NCBI GenBank assembly: GCA_022483245.1
Contig: JAKVNR010000001.1
Location: forward strand, 124,001-188,000
Length of the DNA: 64,000 nucleotides
Source of the DNA: Lactobacillus sp.
GTDB lineage: Bacteria > Bacillota > Bacilli > Lactobacillales > Lactobacillaceae
Direction of reading: 5' to 3'
Numbering within the stretch: position 1 is the first letter of the stretch; every line of letters begins with the position of its first letter. A program made the translations under genes and the position numbers. The notes beneath the pieces were generated by a model. It was not told the origin of the DNA. It saw only the letters and a list, made by a program, of their open reading frames with translations, and searched no databases. This document shows, one piece after another, positions 23,936 to 32,582 of the stretch.

Positions 23936-24009
23936 GACTTCGTAGCTCAGCTGGATAGAGCGACTGTCTCCTAAACAGTAGGTCGTGGGTTCGAATCTCA
24001 CCGGGGTCA
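23936..24009 (+). tRNA. tRNA-Arg (anticodon CCT)
   Basis: The cloverleaf folds by eye: acceptor GACTTCG pairing with CGGGGTC (two G-T pairs), D-arm AGCTCAGCTGGATAGAGC, anticodon stem ACTGT/ACAGT with loop CTCCTAA giving anticodon CCT (codon AGG), and T-arm GTGGG-TTCGAAT-CTCAC. The discriminator is A and no CCA is encoded. It lies between the EIIC gene and wecB. Confidence 0.95.
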
Positions 24010-30184: not shown

Positions 30185-31024
30185 ATGACATATTTATTTG
30201 TAGCCGCGGTGAAACGCAGTTCATATTCAACGCACGCTGCTAGCAATTTAGCAGCAGTAGAATCAGCAGCTCTGCAAGCTGCTGGCTTGAGTACTGCACA
30301 AGTTGACGGTAGAACCACGTCTTTATCTGAAGCAGTTAATCGCTTAGAAAAAGACGCGCAAGTCTATCTTTGGGAACAAAGCAGCCAGCCGCAAACTTGG
30401 ACCAAAGATTTGCTTGAGCCAATTGAACAAGCGCTGACTAAAGCAGAAATTGCTCGGGCCAATCAAGACGAATTTGCACTTGCTGCAGAGTCACAAGCTT
30501 ATGCTGGTTGGCGCAATGGCTGGTTTCAGCAAGAAGTTATTGGCGAGCAGATGGATACGACGATTGCCGCCAATGTCGGCTATCAAGTTTTGACAAGCTT
30601 TGAATCAATTGTCCCACATGGCTCGATTACATTAGGAAACAGTGAACCGCCTGCCGGTGGGGCAATTGTAGCCGTGTTAGTTAATGAAGCTGCGTTAGAG
30701 GCTAATCGAAATGTTAATCCAATCGCTAGAATTAGTGGGCAAGCTGATGATTTGTCTGGGCTATCGGCCAATCTGCGTGCTCAGGATGCGATTGAATTAG
30801 CTTATCCAACGGCTGGTCAAAACTTGTTAGTGCAAGAACGATACCAAATCAGCTCTTCCTTGCTGAATCCGAGCGGTGGCTTGTTAGCTTTAGGCTATTT
30901 GCAGAATAATTTATTGCTATCGGCAACCGCAGAATTAGTGAATGATTTAGTGCAGTTAAATGCAGGCCGCGGGATTGTTGCTGGTGTTGGCGGAGCATTA
31001 GCGTTTCGCCGTGTTAAGCTATGA
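30185..31024 (+). CDS. Degenerate thiolase-family protein lacking catalytic residues
   Basis: The 279-residue product aligns by eye to thiolases (acetyl-CoA acetyltransferases): an early helix pattern ending in AALQAAGL, the FALAAESQAYAGWRNGWFQQEV block, SFESIVPHGSITLGNS (thiolases have GTVTAGNAS), NPSGGLLALGYL and a final GVGGALAFRR. Thiolases are about 390 residues; roughly 100 between the first helix pattern and the ESQ block are gone, including the nucleophilic Cys. The His of the GHP motif is Tyr (GYL), and the C-terminal Cys of the CIGGG motif is Gly. The frame is intact. Start ATG 30185 has GAGGGAAAAG upstream. Confidence 0.65.
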   Translation: MTYLFVAAVKRSSYSTHAASNLAAVESAALQAAGLSTAQVDGRTTSLSEAVNRLEKDAQVYLWEQSSQPQTWTKDLLEPIEQALTKAEIARANQDEFALAAESQAYAGWRNGWFQQEVIGEQMDTTIAANVGYQVLTSFESIVPHGSITLGNSEPPAGGAIVAVLVNEAALEANRNVNPIARISGQADDLSGLSANLRAQDAIELAYPTAGQNLLVQERYQISSSLLNPSGGLLALGYLQNNLLLSATAELVNDLVQLNAGRGIVAGVGGALAFRRVKL

Positions 31025-31025
31025 G

Positions 31026-31041
31026 TTGCAAGCGCTTACAG
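31026..31041. promoter_or_regulatory. Candidate CcpA cre site
   Basis: TTGCAAGCGCTTACAG fits the cre consensus WTGNNARCGNWWWCAW at 15 of 16 positions. It covers the -35 of the promoter at 31026-31054, where CcpA would block transcription when HPr is phosphorylated at Ser46. Confidence 0.7.
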
Positions 31042-31054
31042 GCGACGATATAAT
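31026..31054 (+). promoter_or_regulatory. Consensus promoter of the small RNA candidate
   Basis: TTGCAA (31026-31031), exactly 17 bp, then TATAAT (31049-31054). Expected transcription start is near 31061. The element follows the thiolase-like gene's stop at 31024 and is directed away from any coding gene. Confidence 0.75.
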
Positions 31055-31060
31055 ATAATT

Positions 31061-31210
31061 AGAGGGGAGCATTAACATAAACTTTTATCTCCAAAATTGT
31101 TAGTGAAGCAATAGATTTTCCTTGTTTGCGATTAACAGCAGGCAAGCGTTCCCCTCTAATTGGTCCAGCAGCGGGTTTGCAAATGGCAGCTAAGCCAGCA
31201 GCCTGCTTTT
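31061..31210 (+). ncRNA. Candidate CcpA-regulated small RNA (~150 nt)
   Basis: The predicted transcript starts near 31061 and ends in the T run at 31207. Folding by eye gives: a closing stem AGAGGGGAGC (31061-31070) with GTTCCCCTCT (31148-31157); a 6-bp hairpin at 31096-31112; a 9-bp hairpin CTTGTTTGC/GCAGGCAAG (31121-31146, 8-nt loop, two G-U pairs); and a terminator hairpin. Unpaired UAUCUCC (31086-31092) could pair with a Shine-Dalgarno GGAGA. No open reading frame with a ribosome binding site is seen inside. Architecture and cre control recall Bacillus SR1 and Staphylococcus RsaI in principle, not in sequence. The family is not identified. Confidence 0.6.
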
Positions 31211-31213
31211 TTT
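31170..31213 (+). terminator. Terminator of the small RNA candidate
   Basis: AGCGGGTT(T)GC pairs with GCAGCCTGCT, enclosing an inner TGGC/GCCA hairpin, followed by seven T. Confidence 0.75.
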
Positions 31214-31217
31214 GTGC

Positions 31218-32582
31218 TTATTTTTTGCGTAAGACTAGTTTGGCGATAGCCTCACAACGCGGAGTTTGCGGGAACATATCAACTGACTTAATAACTCTTA
31301 CTTGGTATTTTTCACTAAGTAAAACTAAGTCTTGCGCCAAGGTCGATGGGTTGCAAGAAATGTAGACAAAAGTGCGCGGCTTAGCTGTTAAAATGGTTTT
31401 GATCATGCTTTTAGCCAGACCGGTACGCGGCGGATCAACAATTAAGGCATCGAATTTTAAGCCATCTGCCTGCAAGGCAGGCAAGACTTTTTCAACTGCC
31501 CCTTGGTAGTATTCTGCATTTCGGATATGGTTTAGCTGACAGTTTTTGCGGGCGTCAGCGACGGCTGCAGGAATGGTTTCAATTCCGATCACTTGCTTGA
31601 CGCTGCTGGCTGCCAAAATACCTAAAGTACCAATCCCGCTGTACGCATCAATTAAAGTTTGGCCCGGGCGCAAATCCAGCATTTGCAAAGCGGAATCGTA
31701 TAACTTAACTGTTTGGGCAGGATTTAATTGGAAGAAAGCTTGTGGCGATAAGTGGAAAGTACGGTCATGAATTTTTTCGGTAATAAAGTCCTGGCCCCAT
31801 AATTTTTGGGTTTTGTTGCCCCAAACTTGTGGATTAGTCCATTGAGTAATGTTTTGGAAAATGCCAGTCACATGTGGCAATTGACTAATATCTTTTACCA
31901 GTTCAGATACATGTGCCAGCTGATCGCCAACAGTAATCAAAGTGACCTGTGCTTCTTGCGTAGTGGCCGAAGTTCGAACAACGACTGTTTTTACTCCCGG
32001 CTTTTTGGTCCGCTGGTTAGCAATGTTAATTTTATGCTTGATCAGCAAATCGCGAATTTTCCGCTCCAGCTGCTGGGATAATTTTCCTTGCGTTGGCATC
32101 TGCGGCAAATCAACTAATTGTCGGGTGCCCGGTTCATACAGGCCTAAAGCTAGTTTTCCGCGGAGAATTTCTGCTTGATATTGGGCTTTTTGCCGGTAAT
32201 GCCACGGCTGGTCTGCTGGCGCAGTAGCTTGCACTTTGATTTTTTGATAGGCCCGCGGGCGATATTTGGCTAGACTTTCTCTAATTAAACCGGTTTTGAA
32301 TTTTAATTGAGATGCATAGTTTAAATGAGCCAGCTCTAAGCCACCTGTTTTAGGATTAGCGCCTTTAGGCAGGGCAACTCGGTCAGGACTAACTTCTTTC
32401 AGACGGATTAAACTGCCTTCTAAATAATTGCGCTGGCGGTTAACAATTTTAACCACAGCAACTTCACCTGGCAGAGCACCAGGGACAAAAATAATTTTCT
32501 TGCGGTAGTAGCCGATGCCCTCACCGTTAATACCTAGACGTTTGATAGTGATGATGACCGGATGATAATTTTGCTGTTGCAC
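31218..32582 (-). CDS. rlmCD: 23S rRNA (uracil-C5)-methyltransferase, RlmCD type
   Basis: A 454-residue TrmA-family enzyme. The N-terminal TRAM domain (about 1-60, IKRLGINGEGIGYYRKKIIFVPGALPGE) is followed by the SAM-binding fold with DAYSGIGTLGILAA near 310 and the catalytic Cys in YISCNPSTLAQDL near 414, with the general base Glu in CEAIAKLVL. The iron-sulfur cysteines of E. coli RlmD are absent (GGLELAHL replaces a Cys-rich stretch), as in the Gram-positive RlmCD that methylates U747 and U1939. The start is a GTG with AAAGGAG upstream. Confidence 0.88.
   Translation of the reverse strand: MQQQNYHPVIITIKRLGINGEGIGYYRKKIIFVPGALPGEVAVVKIVNRQRNYLEGSLIRLKEVSPDRVALPKGANPKTGGLELAHLNYASQLKFKTGLIRESLAKYRPRAYQKIKVQATAPADQPWHYRQKAQYQAEILRGKLALGLYEPGTRQLVDLPQMPTQGKLSQQLERKIRDLLIKHKINIANQRTKKPGVKTVVVRTSATTQEAQVTLITVGDQLAHVSELVKDISQLPHVTGIFQNITQWTNPQVWGNKTQKLWGQDFITEKIHDRTFHLSPQAFFQLNPAQTVKLYDSALQMLDLRPGQTLIDAYSGIGTLGILAASSVKQVIGIETIPAAVADARKNCQLNHIRNAEYYQGAVEKVLPALQADGLKFDALIVDPPRTGLAKSMIKTILTAKPRTFVYISCNPSTLAQDLVLLSEKYQVRVIKSVDMFPQTPRCEAIAKLVLRKK

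Follow-up and report, generated by a model that had tools for sequence, protein, structure and literature searches.

The window, i.e., the whole 64,000-nucleotide stretch of Lactobacillus sp. DNA analyzed here, contains a short region between an ORF with weak thiolase similarity and the convergent gene rlmCD, in which a promoter with an overlapping cre operator precedes a predicted small RNA and a terminator-like hairpin. The features are, in order of their position:

30185..31024, plus strand: upstream co-directional ORF with weak similarity to thiolases (ORF list, profile search)
31026..31031, plus strand: -35 hexamer TTGCAA (promoter scan)
31026..31040, plus strand: cre operator TTGCAAGCGCTTACA overlapping the -35 (pattern match)
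31049..31054, plus strand: -10 hexamer TATAAT after a 17-nt spacer (promoter scan)
31061..31213, plus strand: predicted small RNA (start deduced from the -10, end set at the T-run of the terminator-like hairpin)
31061..31070, plus strand: 5' arm of the closing stem P1 (fold)
31071..31104, plus strand: hairpin 1 (31071-31077 / 31098-31104) with the exposed motif in its loop (fold)
31086..31092, plus strand: UAUCUCC, proposed antisense seed against Shine-Dalgarno (SD) sequences (unpaired probability, conservation)
31121..31146, plus strand: hairpin 2 (31121-31129 / 31138-31146; fold, also in the consensus fold with the relative from genome G047)
31148..31157, plus strand: 3' arm of P1 (fold)
31170..31213, start approximate, plus strand: intrinsic-terminator-like hairpin followed by T7 (fold and sequence)
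31218..32582, minus strand: rlmCD/rumA, 23S rRNA uracil-C5-methyltransferase, convergent, used as syntenic anchor (TIGR00479, 388 bits)

The sigma-A-type promoter of the original prediction (TTGCAA-17-TATAAT, 31026-31054) was recovered by our promoter scan with 10 of 12 matches, and as the scan reported eight promoter-like sites in 4 kb versus 5.8 in shuffled sequences, the promoter by itself proves nothing. The cre operator that had been proposed at this promoter was found as a 15/15 match of 31026-31040 to WTGNAANCGNWNNCW, and it extends over the -35 and the beginning of the spacer with the -10 lying outside. Taken alone the loose consensus is unimpressive, because about two occurrences per window are expected by chance and two were observed. 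The stricter pattern TGNAANCGNTTNCA occurs once in the window, namely at the cre itself, with an expectation of 0.16 and at least one occurrence in 14 of 100 shuffled windows. The source genome encodes a CcpA-like protein (394.9 bits, below the curated cut-off of 442.35), and since the cre overlies the -35, we infer that CcpA would bind here and act as a repressor.

Transcription from this promoter would produce an RNA that extends from 31061 to 31213. The predicted fold agrees with the earlier proposal of an RNA of about 150 nt with a 10-bp closing stem, as P1 pairs 31061-31070 with 31148-31157, and it contains the two main inner hairpins together with a weak third one. The region 31061-31212 folds with -50.3 kcal/mol (z = -3.63), and none of 200 shuffled sequences was as good. 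UAUCUCC, which had been singled out as unpaired, indeed has a mean unpaired probability of 0.89 in the window RNA. A terminator ahead of rlmCD had also been expected, and by fold and sequence a hairpin at about 31170-31207 followed by T7 (31207-31213) is present, which is absent from the output of a simple terminator scan; its T-run ends 4 bp before the rlmCD ORF. In the region 31207-31220 a T-run of the terminator hairpin is present on the side of the RNA only. No clear terminator for rlmCD was seen at 31207-31220, so read-through from rlmCD could yield an antisense transcript to the small RNA.

The window RNA has no ORF of at least 12 codons that closes inside it after an SD-like site, which confirms the earlier statement that no frame has a ribosome binding site; a TTG frame at 31126-31365 extends beyond the terminator and has no SD-like sequence ahead of it. 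Counting in the same way in 63 extracted RNAs, with frames running off the RNA end excluded, revealed such an ORF in three of them (G008, G069, and G071; our genome numbers), all starting with TTG, and the frames of the window RNA and its relative in G047 are not the same. The RNA has no conserved reading frame. GAGG-like SD motifs in the 5' arm of P1 of many relatives would suit an mRNA for a very small protein, but with an SD-preceded closed ORF in so few RNAs and none in the window, and with frames that differ between the window and G047, we regard this explanation as highly improbable.

To place the RNA among its relatives, the source genome (1.56 Mb, single contig) and its neighbors were studied in a set of 75 genomes of the genus Lactobacillus. 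Using blastn with the RNA region we identified one close copy (G047, 89% identity) and some short weak matches, and as blastn finds few relatives, the neighbor gene rlmCD was taken as a syntenic anchor. RlmCD was found in 72 of the 75 genomes, and the stretch beyond the rlmCD 3' end was read in 70, leaving out G016 (partial match), G046 (weaker paralogue only), and G063, G066, and G070 (no match). At the rlmCD-convergent place, 59 of these 70 genomes carry a cre with no more than one mismatch that is followed by a -10 hexamer at a distance of 7-9 nt, compared with 2 of 70 upstream control stretches under the same rule. The cre is perfect in 35 of the 59 genomes and carries one mismatch in 24, and its distance to the -10 is 7, 8, or 9 nt in 15, 33, and 11 genomes, respectively. 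Three further genomes have a cre with two mismatches (G009, G039, and G045, the latter probably spurious). The fixed rule finds no cre in eight genomes (G006, G044, G042, G074, G007, G026, G053, and G057): G006 retains P1 and an RNA-like stretch and G044 the motif and P1, the locus of G042 is degenerate, the intergenic stretch of G074 is short and empty, and in the remaining four no RNA unit was recognized beyond the rlmCD 3' end.

Of the 70 genomes, 52 contain the exact motif TATCTCC no more than 480 nt from the rlmCD end, and 49 contain it together with the cre. Variants are AATCTCT in five genomes (G048, G050, G051, G054, and G055), AAATCTT in G052, TATCTTT in G042, and TATTTCC in G062 and G006; G040, G041, and G056 have kept the cre and contain no recognizable motif. 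For a closer comparison, clades were grouped by eye and two alignments were built, A1 with 21 of 25 clade-A and clade-C sequences (the close copies G029, G060, G032, and G061 were dropped) and A2 with 10 of 14 clade-B and clade-H sequences (G034, G058, G059, and G044 were dropped). A1, with a mean column identity of 59%, shows no variation in the twelve columns GTTTTTATCTCC, and the same holds in A2 for TTATCTCCA. The unit is present in L. delbrueckii (G011), L. jensenii (G022), L. gallinarum (G013), and L. kefiranofaciens (G027), whose niches are dairy, vaginal, and gut environments. The comparison of the 70 genomes lends strong support to an RNA gene that has been conserved along with its cre-over-promoter arrangement, while no reading frame has been.

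The genes upstream of the RNA differ between species. In the window, the ORF at 30185-31024 encodes 279 amino acids, apparently a thiolase-like protein that has degenerated or diverged (26.1 bits to Pfam thiolase; 42.6 bits to TIGR01930 with a cut-off of 240.55), and a thiolase-like ORF ahead of the RNA is restricted to the window and G047 (73% identical). The gene at this place is an alpha/beta hydrolase in some species (Pfam; G003 and G011) and an HMG-CoA synthase in G014 (L063:3174-4334; TIGR01835 463.7 bits, cut-off 360.35) and, by Pfam, in G022 (L092) and G040 (L061). The thiolase-like ORF and the HMG-CoA synthase are presumably two genes of the mevalonate-pathway type at the spot upstream of the RNA. 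Thirteen upstream proteins fall into three BLASTP groups with no significant match between groups. As the upstream genes change while the RNA unit and rlmCD stay, the RNA unit is the constant part, which argues for an independent gene.

Alternatively, the RNA could belong to the upstream mRNA as its 3' untranslated region and merely contain a promoter, in which case most of the RNA would arise from read-through and CcpA would act as a roadblock or secondary control. In 55 of 59 genomes, the distance from the end of the nearest upstream frame of at least 100 codons to the cre is 40 nt or less (median 11; the frames of G013, G027, and G056 look wrong, and the gaps of G035 and G049 are larger). 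In the window, the stop codon at 31022-31024 is 1 bp away from the -35, which leaves no space for a terminator and makes read-through likely. The original description as a stand-alone gene therefore holds in part, as the RNA gene is not shielded from transcription of its upstream neighbor. Set against the 3' untranslated region are the three upstream genes without mutual BLASTP similarity that precede the same unit and the conservation of the promoter with its near-fixed cre to -10 spacing of 7-9 nt, and we consider this explanation improbable.

P1 is present in the consensus folds of both alignments, with 11 pairs and 4 of 231 cells broken in A1 and with 12 pairs and 3 of 120 cells broken in A2. 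Three pairs per consensus are changed on both sides. The search for covarying stems was successful for one P1 pair in A1 and yielded none in P1 of A2; at least one further compensatory P1 pair is visible by eye in the comparison of the window with G047. Judged from these pair counts, which are without a shuffle control, the covariation of P1 appears modest, if not thin. Inside the clades P1 is kept mostly as sequence, and it differs from clade to clade, with the arms GUGGAAGAGGUA/UACCUCAUCCAC and GUGGAUAG/UUAUCCGC in clades, AGAGGGGAG/UUCCCCUCU in the window, and AGAGAGGAAG/CUUCCUCUCU in G047. According to an automatic reading, the 3' arm ends at most 16 nt from the terminator in 55 of 60 RNAs. 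The duplex energy of P1 was reached by at most 10 of 200 shuffles in 32 of 60 RNAs and by none in 14. The 28 misses belong to clades B (9), D (10), E (4), and F (3), together with G009 and G044; in most of the clade-B cases the extraction removed part of a P1 arm, and the A2 consensus has the whole arm.

Over 51 RNAs, the unpaired probability of the motif has a median of 0.62 and ranges from 0.10 (G027) to 0.94 (G047), and a median of 19% of the 7-nt windows of the same RNA are more open. In G001, G012, and G049 the 5' arm of P1 is predicted to pair with at least about half of the motif. When the sequences of clades A-E were scored for a hairpin with the motif in its loop, p ≤ 0.05 was reached by 4 of 19 members of clade A and by none of those scored from clade B (7), clade C (5), clade D (6), and clade E (2). 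The hairpin around the motif is therefore weakly supported in clades other than that of the window.

Up to the terminator, the RNA measures about 100 nt in clade E and as much as 316 nt in the longest cases; the lower values obtained for G017 and G042 are probably due to a misassigned terminator. A short form is found in the window and G047, and the larger form of many species carries the further conserved segments CGAACAAGUGA and AUCGUGACUAU (A1), which could not be made out by eye in the short RNAs of the window, G047, and G048/G050. Such a length and interior variation is unusual for a simple antisense RNA. A far-reaching and rather doubtful idea is that of an undescribed genus-wide Lactobacillus riboregulator with a multi-domain large form of about 180-316 nt, in which the SD-like 5' arm of P1 would pair either with the 3' arm, leaving the seed free, or with UUUUUAUCUC, masking the seed, so that only the complete transcript would be active; the window species would then have a reduced form with little beyond P1, seed, and terminator. 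If true, such a riboregulator would couple catabolite control to translation.

Target prediction from the UCUCC segment, as suggested originally, did not bear out: no conserved target emerged. The strict pattern TGGAGATAAAA followed by ATG occurs at 55 places in 37 of 75 genomes and the reversed control pattern at 20, an excess that may be expected because the pattern contains the SD sequence, and 4 of the 55 places are the other strand of the RNA gene itself. Among the 30 of these places that were inspected, recurrences were confined to close relatives, short frames, and one protein that G020 and G044 have in common. In the source genome GGAGATAA followed by ATG is present at seven places, three of which we take to be polA-, fusA-, and dnaN-like starts. 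A search for GGAGATA followed by ATG in eight genomes gave, among the matches listed, 40 places from five genomes, which were picked for A or G after the motif and compared with 14 earlier places. Genes with a GGAGATA-type SD mostly differ from species to species (54 places, among the matches listed). Recurrent among the matches listed were fusA (genome of the window and L. delbrueckii), a site inside an ABC-transporter-like gene (G002 and G013), and a distant similarity between transporters, so that fusA was the sole recurring candidate with its site at a true start. The fusA site was found in 7 of 30 genomes checked (67 with a fusA match), and its carriers include G053, which has no RNA at the rlmCD place, and G048, G051, and G055, in which the motif differs. 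As a site in 7 of 30 species that does not follow the presence of the RNA, fusA was rejected as a conserved target.

Since no conserved target was found, a protein-binding role has to be taken into account, i.e., the RNA gene would be real and controlled by CcpA and its product would mainly bind a protein or another RNA, like a 6S-like decoy or a sponge. The larger form with CGAACAAGUGA and AUCGUGACUAU goes beyond the needs of an antisense seed, and a study on the 6S RNA of lactic acid bacteria describes a cre in about a third of the species, there located over the -35, an own terminator in most species, and a usual place between rarA and uspA (PMC8414754). In the same study, a cre over the -35 is argued to mean repression while a preferred sugar is present, and a roughly 3-fold increase of 6S RNA in an L. 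lactis ccpA mutant is cited (PMC8414754). Non-coding nature and a cre overlapping the -35 are indeed shared with 6S RNA and Lacto-usp. In contrast, the window RNA is located between the thiolase-like ORF and rlmCD and not between rarA and uspA, its predicted fold is a multi-branch junction and not a rod with a central bulge, and the 6S-equivalent Lacto-usp of the source genome (G000) maps to another locus (C1:321559-321646, about 166 kb away). Furthermore, the longest invariant stretch of A1 holds the mostly open anti-SD-like heptamer, and by eye neither of the two additional segments could be recognized in the short RNAs. All in all, a decoy or sponge seems to be a possible, if rather unlikely, main function.

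The covariance models of 6S RNA (RF00013) and Lacto-usp (RF01710) gave no match at the small-RNA locus, and both candidates were rejected by locus, covariance model, and fold; RF00013 itself was found in 0 of 13 Lactobacillus genomes searched, whereas all 8 other Lactobacillales genomes contained it. In agreement with the original prediction, which recognized no family, no Rfam 15 family exceeded its gathering threshold at the RNA in the window and in 10 + 6 relative loci. The nearest match in relatives is SSRC34_2 in L048 (36.9 bits with a threshold of 48, E 0.011), which lies on the other strand and spans the terminator region together with the 3' end of rlmCD. One weak match, to alpha_tmRNA (E 0.23, 10.6 bits, cut-off 50), is presumably a chance hit. 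A tRNA gene at 23936-24009 is the sole Rfam match at gathering level in the window. There is no second copy in the source genome, where besides the gene itself 13 short matches were obtained (best E 0.02), and with regard to mobile elements the window RNA had no match in plasmids and its relative from G013 none in phages.

To our knowledge, few base-pairing RNAs are known in lactobacilli, and among the top-ranked titles and abstracts of the open-licence literature we found no description of this RNA. SR1 of Bacillus subtilis is a glucose-controlled small RNA that regulates an mRNA in trans and also encodes a peptide; the window RNA, compared by description, is set apart by having no SD-preceded reading frame. 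The closest tested case is RsaI of Staphylococcus aureus, which according to PMC9266662 is kept low by CcpA when glucose is abundant and which represses the translation of glcU_2 and fn3K through base pairing at the SD sequence. The same logic is proposed for the window RNA, and the predicted exposure of UAUCUCC fits it; differences are the genus and the tested targets of RsaI, the comparison is one of descriptions, and Rfam links the window RNA to no family. Another lactic acid bacterium small RNA tied to the sugar source, likewise compared by description, is LLMGnc_147 of Lactococcus lactis, for which PMC6085457 gives a length of 102 nt, conservation among lactococci, high levels with cellobiose or galactose, and an increased expression of a PTS cluster.

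Taken together, we assume with a probability of about 0.6 that the locus encodes a new RNA family of the genus Lactobacillus, which is repressed by CcpA and pairs with Shine-Dalgarno regions to block translation. As long as a preferred sugar is plentiful, CcpA together with HPr-Ser46-P would occupy the cre over the -35 and silence the promoter; exhaustion of this sugar, or a poor sugar in its place, would cause CcpA to dissociate and allow synthesis of the RNA. P1 would then zip the RNA ends just ahead of the terminator and leave UAUCUCC exposed, which could pair with GGAGAUA-type Shine-Dalgarno sequences and block translation of target mRNAs. Transcription, CcpA binding, the sign of control as read from the cre position, pairing with mRNAs, and the physiological role are deductions. 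A catabolite-controlled base-pairing RNA would add a post-transcriptional layer to the sugar regulation of Lactobacillus, a genus of economic and medical importance, and the RNA can be tested directly in cultivable strains.

With regard to the spread of the unit, a scan with a strict pattern across named genomes revealed 32 stretches, 22 of them in Lactobacillus; the ten others could be chance, with an estimate of about 4 at even base composition. Among 26 of the 99 matching genomes of the family outside the genus, G109 alone carries the unit. This member (L196, another genus) has a long insertion between the 5' arm of P1 and TTTTATCTCC.
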